A stretch of DNA of 64,000 nt. Source: Actinomycetota bacterium. GTDB taxonomy: Bacteria > Actinomycetota > Geothermincolia > Geothermincolales > RBG-13-55-18. The translations under genes were made by a program, and so were the position numbers. Of the stretch, positions 2,328 to 48,996 are shown piece after piece. The notes beneath the pieces are model-generated. The model ran no database searches, was not told the origin of the DNA, and saw only the letters and a list, made by a program, of their open reading frames with translations. Every line of letters starts with the position of its first letter. Within the stretch, counting starts at the first letter, position 1. Where the stretch lies: positions 1 through 64,000 of the forward strand of contig JABLXL010000007.1 of NCBI GenBank assembly GCA_013178005.1, written 5' to 3'.

Positions 2328-3503
2328 ATGAGCGGCACGGACACGCGCGTGGACGAGAGGCTGTTCAAGCGGGATTTCGTCATGATATGCCTCGTCAATA
2401 TGCTGGCGTTTTTTTCCATTTACCTCGTTATCCCCATCCTCCCCGTGTTCCTGGAGGAGCGCGGCTACTCCAACTCCCTGGTGGGGGCGATCATGTCCAT
2501 GGCCACCGTGGCGGCCTTGCTGCGTCCGCTTTTCGGCCGATTCGCCGACCTGCGGGGGCGAAAGGCAACCTTGCTTGGCGGAACGTTGGTCATGGGGATT
2601 TCCACTTTTCTCTACGCCGCCTTCTCGACCGCCCTGCCGCTTTTCCTCATCCGCTTCCTCAACGGCTTGGGGTTGGCGGCCTTCCACACCGCGGCCTACG
2701 CCGTCATCGGCGACCTGGCGCCCGCCGCTCGCCGCCTGCAAGCCATCGCCTTTTTCTATATCTCCGTGGACGTCACCATCGCCGCGGCCCCCATAGCCGC
2801 CAAGGCCATGGAAGATTCCTTGGGGTACTCCCCCGTGTACGCGCTGGCCGGGGGCCTGGCGGTGCTGGCCTTTATCGCCTCGCTCCTGGTGCGCGAGACC
2901 CACGAGGCGCGGGAACCGGAAGCGCGGGAGAAACGCCGGTTGAGGCTGACCCCGCTCCAGAGGAACATCTACCTGGCCACCATGGGTTTCACCCTCACCT
3001 TCGGCACCCTCCAGACCTTCATCGTTCTCTCCTCGGAGAGCAAGGGCGTGGTGCAGGGAGAGCTCTTCTTCACCGTCTTTGCGGTAACCCTCATCGTCTT
3101 CAGGCTCGGGGTCGGGAGGCGCGCGGACCGCTGGGGCAGGAGGAACCTCATCCTGTCTTCGGCAGCCATAACCCTGGTCGGCCTGGGAACACTTTCCTTC
3201 TCCTCCACGCTCTTTCAGCTGCTGTTGGGGAGTTTCCTCTACGCCCTGGGCTTCGCTTACCTGCCCACCACCCTGTCGGCCCTCCTCTTGGACCATACCG
3301 ACGCCGCGGATCGCGGGGCGGCGCTTGGCATTTTCATGGCGGTATTCGACCTGGGAATCGGCCTGGGGGGCATCGCCCTCGGGCCCCTGGCCGACCTCTG
3401 GGGATACACGCCCATGTACCTCAGCGGGGGAGCGATCGCGATCGCCTGCCTGGTCCCGTTCCTCGCGCGTGCCGTCACAACGCGGGAGTCGAAGCCCGGC
3501 TGA
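2328..3503 (+). CDS. MFS transporter
   Basis: A 391-residue integral membrane protein with about 12 hydrophobic segments and a central hydrophilic loop (residues about 190-215). This is the layout of the major facilitator superfamily. The loop between TM2 and TM3 shows the signature GRFADLRGRKATLL, and a second copy, RRADRWGRRN, occurs in the second half. Start chosen at the ATG at 2328, behind GGAGAGGAAGGCGGGG, which gives the short cytoplasmic N-terminus usual for the family. A GTG at 2247 with its own GGGAGG would add 27 residues. Substrate unknown; the fold fits drug/proton antiport or metabolite efflux. Confidence 0.9.
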   Translation: MSGTDTRVDERLFKRDFVMICLVNMLAFFSIYLVIPILPVFLEERGYSNSLVGAIMSMATVAALLRPLFGRFADLRGRKATLLGGTLVMGISTFLYAAFSTALPLFLIRFLNGLGLAAFHTAAYAVIGDLAPAARRLQAIAFFYISVDVTIAAAPIAAKAMEDSLGYSPVYALAGGLAVLAFIASLLVRETHEAREPEAREKRRLRLTPLQRNIYLATMGFTLTFGTLQTFIVLSSESKGVVQGELFFTVFAVTLIVFRLGVGRRADRWGRRNLILSSAAITLVGLGTLSFSSTLFQLLLGSFLYALGFAYLPTTLSALLLDHTDAADRGAALGIFMAVFDLGIGLGGIALGPLADLWGYTPMYLSGGAIAIACLVPFLARAVTTRESKPG

Positions 3504-3713
3504 CAGGCCGGTATAAACCCATGGCCGTCTGGTCCATCCCGCTTCGTGACCTGGTTGGTTATGGCAACTGTGTCCCCTCGGCTAGAGGCCTTCGGGCCTC
3601 CCGCCAGAGCCGCTGGTGTTGTCCTATAATGAACGATACCAGTAAAACGACTGTGGAGGCGGTATCCAGCCTGCGGGAAGCCATCTTCAGGCGCGACAGG
3701 AAAGCGAGGGAGG

Positions 3714-6558: not shown

Positions 6559-6959
6559 CCTACTTGCCACTCCTTGCCGTTCGGCCCTTCGGTGGACGAA
6601 AAGTCCTCCTACTATGGCCTCTGCTGACTCCTGCGCCGCGGTCAGGGTCCCTCACGGTTCCCTCAGTCCCCTTGGGGGGACACGGCGCAGGCCTCCCGGG
6701 GTAAGACCGGCCGCCTTCCCCGCACACCCGCCGGATTTACGCCCGTGGCCCTTGACGGATATGGACTTCGCGATCTCTTGCTCGCTCGTCCGGCCACGCT
6801 CGCCTCGTATCCGGTTCCTGTTCGTCGGGTCGCGTTTTGCTCCTGCGCTTCCTTCAGACTCAACCTCGCGATTGAGCCCTTGCGCTTCGCTAGTCCTTCA
6901 CCTCCGTCAGGTTGGACAGGGGACTTTCACCCCCGAGCTGCCGGCCATGCCCGGCACAC
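5089..6959 (-). mobile_element. Group II intron, class C type, complete
   Basis: On the minus strand the intron begins at 6959 with GTGTGCCGGG, a typical group II 5' end. It ends near 5089 after ...CCTACCTAT; the 3' boundary is estimated to a few bases. A 34-nt domain V hairpin lies at 5121-5154 (GAACCGCCGTG...CACGGTGGT), with domain VI right after it. The 5' exon is a terminator-like hairpin at 6967-6985, and class C introns characteristically insert behind Rho-independent terminators. Total length about 1.87 kb with the RT inside domain IV. It appears structurally complete; mobility depends on the frameshifted maturase. Confidence 0.88.
5121..5154 (-). ncRNA. Group II intron domain V
   Basis: A 34-nt hairpin on the minus strand (GAACCGCCGTGTACGG then CCGTACGCACGGTGGT) with the length and bulged-stem shape of domain V, the catalytic core of the ribozyme. 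It sits just after the expected end of the maturase frame, as in other class C introns. Confidence 0.85.
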
Positions 6960-11175: not shown

Positions 11176-11566
11176 TGAGAGGGAGCCGGCCTGTAAGCCG
11201 GATTCTGTACCCGGACGAAGCCGGGCGGTGGTCATCCATCTAGGACCGCCGTTGCCGGCGGCCTCCAGCGGCCTACCCGAGCCTCTAGCGCCGCGGGCCA
11301 CGGCATCGGCTCCTATTTGGCCTTGCTCCGGGAGGGGTTTACCAAGCCGGCCCCGTCACCGGGACCGCTGGTGGGCTCTTACCCCACCTTTTCACCCTTG
11401 CCGGCCGGCACCGCATGCGTTGTAGCGCCGGCAGGCGGTTTCCCTTTCTGTGGCACTTTCCGTCGGGTCACCCCGCCTGGGCGTTACCCAGCTCCCCGCC
11501 CTGTGGAGTCCGGACTTTCCTCGCGCGCGCCCTGAAGCGCGCCCGCGACCACCCGGCCGACTCCCT
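11176..11566 (-). ncRNA. rnpB: RNase P RNA, bacterial type A
   Basis: On the minus strand this stretch has the conserved core of bacterial RNase P RNA. The P4-forming GAGGAAAGTCCGGACTCCAC comes early. AAAGTGCCACAGAAAG and GTGAAAAGGTGGGGTAAGAG follow. CCGCTGGAG, TAGATGGATGACCACC and ACAGAATCCGGCTTAC come near the 3' end. The last of these pairs back with the 5' region to complete P4. It cleaves 5' leaders from tRNA precursors with RnpA. Ends are set by the outer helix (GAGTCGGCCGG at the 5' end, GGCCGGCTCCC at the 3' end) and are good to a few bases. Confidence 0.95.
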
Positions 11567-46595: not shown

Positions 46596-46646
46596 GGAGC
46601 GGCGCTAAGCCGCATGGGGTATGGAACCCGGGTCGTATCTTGACCC

Positions 46647-46725
46647 GGGTCGTGTCTTGACTTTTTTGTTCCGGGAAGACTTTGGGTGTTTGTTTTCCGC
46701 CCCGGCGGAATGAAAAAGTAAAGAG
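46647..46725. repeat. Palindromic element L1 (right end truncated)
   Basis: First copy of the left cluster. It starts with the arm GGGTCGTGTCTTGACTTTTT and loses the last 7-9 bases of the right arm after AAAAAGTAAAG. A partial arm also lies just before it at 46628-46642. Confidence 0.85.
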
Positions 46726-46743
46726 AGGATCGGGTATGAACCC

Positions 46744-46829
46744 GGGTCGTGTCTTGACTTTTTTGTTCCGGGAAGACTTTGGGTGTTTGTTTTCCGCCCC
46801 GGCGGAATGAAAAAGTAAAGACACGACCC
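46744..46829. repeat. Palindromic element L2 (86 bp, complete)
   Basis: Arms of 20 bases, GGGTCGTGTCTTGACTTTTT and the inverse of GGGTCGTGTCTTTACTTTTT, with one mismatch. Inner TTCCG/CGGAA extends the stem. The apex has a CCGCC/GGCGG mini-hairpin. Confidence 0.9.
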
Positions 46830-46866
46830 CACGCCCGGGTATGCGACCGGGTCGTGGTATGCGACC

Positions 46867-46952
46867 GGGTCGTATCTTGACTTTTTTGTTCCGGGAAGAC
46901 TTTGGATATATGGCTTGCGCTGCGGCGGAATGAAAAAGTAAAGACACGACCC
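46867..46952. repeat. Palindromic element L3 (86 bp, variant apex)
   Basis: Same arms with one change (GTATCTT). The apex differs from L2 around 46913-46921, weakening the CCGCC/GGCGG pairing. Confidence 0.9.
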
Positions 46953-47037
46953 CACGTTCACATATAATTGAACGTGATCGAACGGCATGTTCGGCAAAAC
47001 GACCGGTTGGGATTCCGCGCTCATCAGGAGGTGCAAG

Positions 47038-48081
47038 ATGACGGTTTCCGGCAACGGAAAGACGCTTTCGGAGGTCATGCGCGATCTCGAGGCGATCCCC
47101 TTCCGCCCGCGGCCCCTGGGCGGGAGGGCCAGCACATGCCTTGGTTTCTCCGCCGATGCCCTGCCCATGTTGCTCGACACCCGCCGCGCCACCGCCTGCA
47201 AACTCTACCCCTATCCGCACTCCTTCCGCTCCGTCACCTTCACCTCGCTGGACGGCACCCCGCTGGCGGGCAAGCTGGCCCTTCACGGCGACGGCACACC
47301 GCGGCCGGGCCTCGTCTTCTGCCACGGAGTCTTCGGGAGCAAGAACCAGAATTACATCCGCAGCGTGGCCGTAAAGGCGCACCGGGAATGGGGCTATAAC
47401 GTCCTGGCCCTGGACACGCGCGGTTTCGGGGAGAGCCGCTACCTTAGCGACGCCATGGTAACCGGAGGCTGGAAGGAGGGCGAGGATGTCATCGCCGCCG
47501 CCCGCTTCCTCGGCGGTTTCGCCCAGGTCACCACGGTGGGGGTCTCCGGCTACAGTATGGGCGCTGCGGCCGCCATGATCGCCGCGGGCATGGACGGGGG
47601 GGAGCATATAACCGGAGGGGTGCTGGCATGGAACGGCACCTCCGATACCCGCGGCATGATAGAGTTCATCTCCAGGCCGCCCATGCCATGGCAGCCCTTC
47701 TTCATCGCCTACCCCCTTTTCAAGGCATGCCTGGTCCTCAAGCTCTCCGGATGGAAGGGATACGAGCACATAAGGGATTTTACCTCCATGTTCTCCGCCG
47801 CCTGCAGAGATTATTACGGCGTTGACGAAGACGAAGCCTACCGCAAGGCTTCACCGGGAAGCTATGTGCATGGCATCCGCATACCCACCGTGCACATCCA
47901 CGCCCAGGACGACCCCATCGTTCCGGTTCGTGAGGCGGAGATGAACAGCGACGCCGCACGGGACAACCCGCATTTCCGCGTCTGGATACTGCCGCGCGGA
48001 GGTCATTGCGCCTTCACGGCCGTGGACAGGGCCTGGTACGAGGGAGTGCTGCGCGGTTTTTTCTCCGCCTGGGCCTCCTGA
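47038..48081 (+). CDS. alpha/beta hydrolase flanked by palindromic repeat clusters
   Basis: A 347-residue hydrolase of the YheT-like group (large alpha/beta hydrolases). The oxyanion motif is CHGVFGSKNQNY, the strand-4 loop DTRGFGES, the nucleophile elbow GYSMGA (Ser at about 181) and the catalytic His in RGGHCAF near the end, with Asp in AQDDPIVP. Probably an esterase of the cytoplasm. Start at the ATG at 47038 behind AGGAGGTG. Matching clusters of three 86-bp palindromes lie on both sides, within 86 bases upstream and starting 8 bases after the stop. Confidence 0.88.
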   Translation: MTVSGNGKTLSEVMRDLEAIPFRPRPLGGRASTCLGFSADALPMLLDTRRATACKLYPYPHSFRSVTFTSLDGTPLAGKLALHGDGTPRPGLVFCHGVFGSKNQNYIRSVAVKAHREWGYNVLALDTRGFGESRYLSDAMVTGGWKEGEDVIAAARFLGGFAQVTTVGVSGYSMGAAAAMIAAGMDGGEHITGGVLAWNGTSDTRGMIEFISRPPMPWQPFFIAYPLFKACLVLKLSGWKGYEHIRDFTSMFSAACRDYYGVDEDEAYRKASPGSYVHGIRIPTVHIHAQDDPIVPVREAEMNSDAARDNPHFRVWILPRGGHCAFTAVDRAWYEGVLRGFFSAWAS

Positions 48082-48088
48082 TGAACCC

Positions 48089-48165
48089 GGGTCGTGTCTT
48101 GACTTTTTTGTTCCGAGACCACGAAGGATGTTTGTTTTCCGCCCCGGCGGAATGAAAAAGTAAAG
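48089..48165. repeat. Palindromic element R1 (right end truncated)
   Basis: Counterpart of L1, truncated at the same place (AAAAAGTAAAG); the apex reads GAGACCACGAAGGATG instead of GGGAAGACTTTGGGTG. Confidence 0.85.
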
Positions 48166-48185
48166 GTACATCCGGGTATGAACCC

Positions 48186-48271
48186 GGGTCGTGTCTTGAC
48201 TTTTTTGTTCCGGGATGAGGTTGGGTGTTTGTCTTCCGCCCCGGCGGAATGAAAAAGTAAAGACACGACCC
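48186..48271. repeat. Palindromic element R2 (86 bp, complete)
   Basis: Counterpart of L2 with identical arms and a slightly changed apex (GGGATGAGGTTGGGTG). Confidence 0.9.
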
Positions 48272-48326
48272 CACGCCCGGGTACGACCCCACGCCCGGGT
48301 ATGCGACCGGGTCGTGGTATGCGACC

Positions 48327-48412
48327 GGGTCGTGTCTTGACTTTTTTGTTCCGAGACCACGAAGGATATTTGTCTTCCGCCCCGGCGGAATGAAAAAGTA
48401 AAGACACGACCC
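48327..48412. repeat. Palindromic element R3 (86 bp, complete)
   Basis: Counterpart of L3 with perfect consensus arms. The linker before it holds an extra 18 bases relative to the left cluster. Confidence 0.9.
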
Positions 48413-48507
48413 CACGTGCGGGTATATTCCACCACCTCCAGGGAAAAATAACAGCGGCATAAGAGACGGCACACAGTCAACGGCACGGTCAGGCACGGAG
48501 GTGAGAC

Positions 48508-48996
48508 ATGTCCAGGGAGAGCAAGGTGCTGAAGGTTGGTGACAGGGCTCCGGAGTTCAGGCTTCCGGATGCCGCTACGGGCGAGGAGGTTGCCCTTTCC
48601 GACTTACTGGACCGTCCCTTGATGATCTACTTCGGCAGGGGCACCTGGTGACCGCACTGCCGCGAGTATATGGGTCATATACAGGACATCCTGCCGGAAC
48701 TGGAAAAACGCGGCGCGCGTGCGGTGGTCATCCTTGCCGAAAAGTTGGAACGTATCCGGGAATACCTCAGGAAAAAGCCTTTTCCCTTCCCCGTGCTCTC
48801 CGACGCGAGGCGCACGGTGGTCAAGGAATACGGCGTCTACGTGCGGGTCAATTTTGAGTCAGTGCACATCGCGCGCCCCGCAAACTTCGTGCTGGACAGC
48901 GGGGGAATTATAAGATACATCTTCATCGCGAGTATCCAGACGGAGTACCCACCCGACGAGGAAATACTGGCGGCCATCGACGAGGCCGCAGGGTAA
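48508..48996 (+). CDS. Peroxiredoxin-like selenoprotein (in-frame TGA read as selenocysteine)
   Basis: A 162-residue AhpC/TSA-type protein with ATG at 48508 behind cacggaggtgag. The frame is open from ATG to TAA except for one TGA at 48649-48651 (codon 48). The surrounding sequence reads IYFGRGTW-U-PHCREYM. Relatives in this family have a catalytic Cys in the matching RGxWCPxC motif, so the TGA stands exactly at the peroxidatic position and leaves the second Cys of a UxxC pair. Downstream codons continue the thioredoxin fold (VVILAEKLERIREYL, FVLDSGGIIRYI). A SECIS-like hairpin follows at 48666. It would reduce peroxides. The alternative is a recent nonsense mutation. Confidence 0.82.
48666..48682 (+). 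promoter_or_regulatory. Bacterial SECIS-like hairpin
   Basis: GTATATG-GGT-CATATAC forms a perfect 7-bp stem whose loop starts with G. The loop begins 21 bases after the TGA, inside the usual bacterial SECIS window. Confidence 0.65.

Follow-up and report, generated by a model that had tools for sequence, protein, structure and literature searches.

An in-frame UGA codon in Candidatus Geothermincolia predicted to encode selenocysteine in a peroxiredoxin-like UxxC protein

The locus studied here raises the question of whether a single TGA triplet within an otherwise open reading frame marks a broken gene, a reassigned codon or a selenocysteine (Sec) residue, and, in the last case, what kind of redox protein would be made. 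The frame lies in the window, a stretch of 64,000 nucleotides analysed as a whole, and is open on the forward strand over 48508–48996 except for the lone TGA, which falls in the motif RGTW-TGA-PHC. An earlier note on this DNA had described it as a probable selenocysteine peroxiredoxin with the TGA at the catalytic Cys. Translation through the TGA gave 162 residues followed by TAA, in agreement with the note, and the ordinary ORF list contained just a 108-aa fragment starting at 48670, as had been anticipated. Standard gene calling splits or loses genes of this type, and no NCBIfam model scores above its cut-off to rescue them. The features of the locus are listed in Table 1; a GGAGG/GAGGT-type site also precedes the start codon in most orthologues.

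Table 1. Features of the selenoprotein gene in the window
Feature	Position	Strand	Basis or remark
Selenoprotein gene, Prx-like UxxC redox protein (predicted)	48508..48996	+	162 aa, TAA stop; Pfam AhpC-TSA E 2.5e-28
Shine-Dalgarno-like GGAGGTG	48497..48503	+	Direct sequence reading; 4 nt upstream of ATG
TGA codon, predicted selenocysteine, residue 48, N-terminal in UxxC	48649..48651	+	Conservation and sel machinery
Cys51 codon, second residue of UxxC; sole Cys codon of the protein	48658..48660	+	Translation; alignments with peroxiredoxins
Putative SECIS hairpin GTATATG-GGT-CATATAC	48666..48682	+	154/154 cells paired; RNAalifold: only this helix
Pro124 codon, thioredoxin/ResA cis-Pro site = peroxiredoxin catalytic Arg site	48877..48879	+	39-homologue alignment; PDB alignments

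Orthologues were found in 20 genomes of the class Candidatus Geothermincolia (Actinomycetota), the source genome included, with Candidatus Solincola as the nearest named relatives. Codon 48 is TGA in 18 of the 19 orthologues from other genomes, the exception being TGT (Cys) in the genome G017. The TGA-bearing orthologues thus span 19 genomes, the 18 others sharing 55–83% identity with the window protein, and three more distant paralogues of the same class (L058, L059 and L060) likewise carry TGA at this codon, giving a set of 22 distinct TGA-bearing sequences (19 orthologues and three paralogues). Apart from this codon the reading frame is unbroken, and substitutions fall mostly at third codon positions upstream and downstream of the TGA alike, which indicates that both halves of the gene are under coding selection; the coding potential that had been claimed for both sides was therefore borne out. 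Pseudogene formation, a sequencing error or a chance nonsense mutation could account for a single TGA in one sequence, and such an origin is scarcely credible here: TGA occupies this codon in 19 orthologues from 19 genomes and in three paralogues, with a coding pattern of substitution on either side, and the conservation of the TGA refutes this explanation.

The source genome (G000; 3.6 Mb, 98 contigs, 97% complete) carries on contig C49, in this order, selD, a gene that is TusA/YedF-like by sequence, selA, selB and a tRNA-Sec with a UCA anticodon, and the inference that the organism makes selenoproteins was upheld by this gene set. The scores were 380 bits for selB, 595 bits for selA and 377 bits for selD. 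The selD gene has an in-frame TGA of its own in SG-U-AAK (L067 1995–1997), and behind it lies a hairpin in keeping with the bacterial SECIS model (GGGTCC-GGA-GGACCT, with its loop 17 nt away from the TGA). Across the class, selA was detected in 27 of 31 genomes, including all 19 with a TGA-bearing orthologue, and the use of selenocysteine is thus widespread in the class; of the four genomes without detectable selA, three have no copy of the selenoprotein gene and one, G017, has the Cys version. Our literature search, which covered few subscription papers, returned no paper pairing Geothermincolia with selenocysteine. A genome-wide reassignment of TGA, for instance to Trp or Gly, would likewise keep the frame open. 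This explanation is refuted and its probability is negligible, as L022, L024, L030 and other relatives within the class terminate the same gene with TGA, the genome carries the UCA tRNA-Sec together with selA, selB and selD, and the only non-TGA orthologue encodes Cys, neither Trp nor Gly. The in-frame UGA at codon 48 is thus almost certainly decoded as selenocysteine, as judged from the sequence comparisons.

A hairpin with a 7-bp stem and a 3-nt loop (GGT) is present, as the earlier note had reported, and its loop begins 21 nt after the TGA. Its arms (48666–48672 and 48676–48682) can pair in all 22 TGA-bearing sequences, and two stem pairs show double changes: four sequences have C-G in place of U-A, and two have G-C in place of A-U. 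These counts come from related sequences and so lack independence, and the other five of the seven pairs are invariant. In the first exchange, a substitution of Val for Ile (ATA to GTA) is matched by a synonymous change of a Tyr codon (TAT to TAC), and in the second, a substitution of Val for Met (ATG to GTG) is matched by a synonymous change of a His codon (CAT to CAC). Moreover, the Ile codon in the stem is ATA in 18 of 18 cases versus 41 of 212 elsewhere in these genes, so that codon choice in the stem runs counter to usage in the remainder of the gene. The published bSECIS model specifies a loop of 3–9 nt with G within the first two loop bases, a stem of 4–16 bp and a distance of 16–37 nt from the UGA (PMC13188914), and the hairpin agrees with it in loop size, stem length, loop G and spacing. 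With the published limit set at no more than −7.5 kcal/mol, its energy was −3.7 kcal/mol in isolation versus −8.6 kcal/mol with flanking bases (48652–48690). Single-sequence folding was rejected as proof of a SECIS element, with z-scores of about 0 for the hairpin of the window gene; 1.7% of synonymous shuffles reached an equal model hairpin, and an Rfam scan of the gene with E up to 10 gave no match. Taken from the window sequence alone, the hairpin is within chance, and its significance comes from conservation.

In the G017 orthologue, where codon 48 reads TGT, the stem-loop no longer folds while much of the peptide is kept. Searches of this genome found no selA, no selB above the cut-off (the best match lay in the EF-Tu range) and no tRNA-Sec above the cut-off. 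With the assembly at 82% completeness and the sel genes of the source genome in a single cluster, one gap could hide all of them, given the same gene order. In the maximum-likelihood tree the Cys version is nested within the Sec clade with support of 97/96, and from this position Sec is likely to be ancestral, with Cys having replaced it in the G017 lineage. The genome ties together the absence of the machinery, the codon change to Cys and the broken SECIS, and would serve as a clean example of selenoprotein reversion.

What kind of protein is encoded was then read from its alignments. The product matches Pfam AhpC-TSA (PF00578) with 99 bits against a gathering score of 26, and the read-through translation aligns with structurally characterised PrxQ/Bcp and ResA proteins. 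The AlphaFold model of the window protein (pLDDT 89.5) fits Bcp/PrxQ structures best, with ResA slightly lower. The proposal that the TGA occupies the peroxidatic position of AhpC/TSA relatives stood for the superfamily only: when the protein is aligned with peroxiredoxins, it is Cys51 that matches the peroxidatic Cys, and the TGA, three residues earlier, matches the Thr/Ser of TxxC. In the thioredoxin fold, this Thr/Ser site is where CxxC has its N-terminal Cys, a residue lost in peroxiredoxins, and a cis-Pro is found in thioredoxins and ResA-type proteins where peroxiredoxins carry Arg (PMC2757866). Among 39 homologues, Pro124 was present in 26 of 26 with UxxC or CxxC, and Arg in 11 of 11 with S/TxxC or S/TxxU. 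The UxxC motif occurs in 20 of the 22 TGA-bearing sequences (WUPHC in the window). The other two belong to the same selenoprotein clade and are without the resolving Cys: L038 (G016), of UxxW type with the motif UPNW, keeps Pro124, and L058 (G020), of UxxA type with the motif UPNA, has Asn there. L058 also carries a second, partial copy of the gene at 3438–3605. With Sec at the first CxxC site and Pro124, the Prx-like scaffold bears two marks of the thioredoxin type. As U replaces the Thr and Pro the Arg of peroxiredoxins, the protein is assigned to the Prx-like UxxC proteins and not to the strict (TxxU) selenocysteine peroxiredoxins, and is best read, on these sequence features, as a Prx-like UxxC thiol:disulfide oxidoreductase. 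Of the designation selenocysteine peroxiredoxin, the first word was thus sustained by TGA conservation, the SECIS element and the sel genes, and the second was not, given UxxC in place of TxxU and Pro124 in place of Arg.

We propose with good confidence that the locus encodes a small UGA-decoding selenoprotein with a peroxiredoxin-like thioredoxin fold that would act as a Sec-dependent thiol:disulfide oxidoreductase. The sequence comparisons show that codon 48 is translated as Sec, with the stem-loop behind the UGA as the SECIS element for SelB and tRNA-Sec(UCA). The selenolate of Sec48 would then attack a disulfide, a peroxide or some other oxidised sulfur species being a less likely target, and the mixed selenylsulfide would be resolved by Cys51 in the manner of the thioredoxin/ResA CxxC motif; these two steps would make the protein a Sec-dependent thiol:disulfide oxidoreductase, which may be re-reduced by a cellular thiol reductant. 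In L038 and L058, which are without Cys51, Sec would need an outside thiol for its resolution, and a CxxC-type cycle would not be obligatory. Thiol:disulfide chemistry rather than peroxidase chemistry appears reasonably probable from the active site. A selenocysteine peroxidase, in which Sec48, or Cys51 aided by Sec48, reduces hydroperoxides on a PrxQ-like fold, is the competing explanation. It would draw on the best fold and sequence matches, which are PrxQ/Bcp proteins, and on the Pfam AhpC-TSA assignment; Cys51 aligns with the peroxidatic Cys, and Arg123, which is invariant, adjoins the usual peroxiredoxin Arg position. However, Sec replaces the Thr/Ser of TxxC and Pro124 replaces the catalytic Arg, which is kept in all S/TxxC and S/TxxU homologues, and a peroxidase working through Cys51 is further opposed by the two members that have lost this residue. 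A peroxidase function is therefore considered unlikely, and it is just as improbable that the peroxiredoxin label was functionally right in spite of the different residue position.

Returning to the oxidoreductase reading, we compared the window protein with the families already described. Prx-like UxxC selenoproteins were described from the Sargasso Sea survey in 2005 (PMC1088965) and were counted in the GOS survey (PMC2398784), and a 2026 review lists them under the name of Prx-like thiol:disulfide oxidoreductases (PMC13188914). The window protein shares with them the PF00578 domain, UxxC rather than TxxU, the existence of Cys homologues and a bacterial SECIS right behind the UGA. It differs in forming a separate clade, which in this analysis was found only in Geothermincolia, the survey proteins being compared by description, and in the RGTWUPHC motif, the RP at the cis-Pro site and the presence of some UxxA/UxxW members. 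On sequence, it belongs to the known Prx-like UxxC kind, as a separate new branch. The selenocysteine peroxiredoxins (Prx, PxxxTxxU; PrxU NF040737) share the fold superfamily, and the window protein scored 26 bits with their model against a cut-off of 270; its Sec is at the Thr position and not at that of the peroxidatic Cys, and Pro stands for Arg. With the ResA/CcmG-type oxidoreductases it has in common a CxxC-type motif and the Pro at the cis-Pro site, and its GTWUPHC lines up directly with GTWCPHC of a ResA variant. In contrast to the ResA/CcmG type, a secretion signal or N-terminal anchor is not apparent in its sequence and its C-terminal half is PrxQ-like; the ResA model NF002854 gave 49 bits against a cut-off of 170. 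The model of the SelL-related redox protein (NF040769) matched weakly in 23 of 23 members scanned, with 42.9 bits for the window protein against a cut-off of 120, and in the NCBIfam scan as a whole the window protein exceeded the cut-off of no model. It is quite possible, though we hold it at slightly less than even confidence, that the clade is a distinct, undescribed subfamily of Candidatus Geothermincolia, which no NCBIfam family model covers. In such a subfamily, with its UxxC, UxxW and UxxA members, the chemistry would depend on Sec48 by itself, and Cys would have taken the place of Sec a single time, in a lineage with no detectable selenocysteine machinery.

Gene neighbours differ among L051, L053, L054 and the window, with no conserved operon context among these four, so the neighbourhood offers no clue to function. 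An alpha/beta-hydrolase-like ORF directly upstream of the selenoprotein gene is flanked by two repeat regions (window 46603–46966 and 48045–48426) with six copies of a repeat of about 144 nt and a 231-nt direct repeat (89%). Elsewhere in the window, matches to group II intron D1–D4 were found at 6584–6875 (−) and an RNase P RNA of class A at 11178–11564 (−).

Several further loci related to selenocysteine were observed. The source genome has a second tRNA-Cys (GCA) with a tRNA-Sec-like build at L002 1501–1590 (−) (G000:C33:22273-22362), of a type also found at L104 (G002) and L105 (G016), and a canonical tRNA-Cys is present in L110. The L002 tRNA has an 8-bp acceptor stem (GGGAGGCA/TGCCTCCC), a long variable arm, U73 and an encoded CCA, and scored 65 bits with the Rfam tRNA-Sec model; it was rejected as a second selC, since ARAGORN reads it as tRNA-Cys (GCA). 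By sequence, this type resembles the selC* tRNA-Cys, which has been reported from other phyla, not from Actinomycetota (PMC7609411); a literature search on tRNAReC found nothing. A separate TGA-bearing UxxC group with the motif GDWUPYCNGQL occurs in other Actinomycetota families (L061, L062, L063 and L064), its proteins being about 231–249 aa long with a C-terminal extension, and the two that were scanned both fell below the NCBIfam cut-offs. Finally, L065 and L066, from other Actinomycetota, are candidates for selenocysteine peroxiredoxins of the T/SxxU type, with the motifs DWTPVU and DFSPVU and Arg at position 124.
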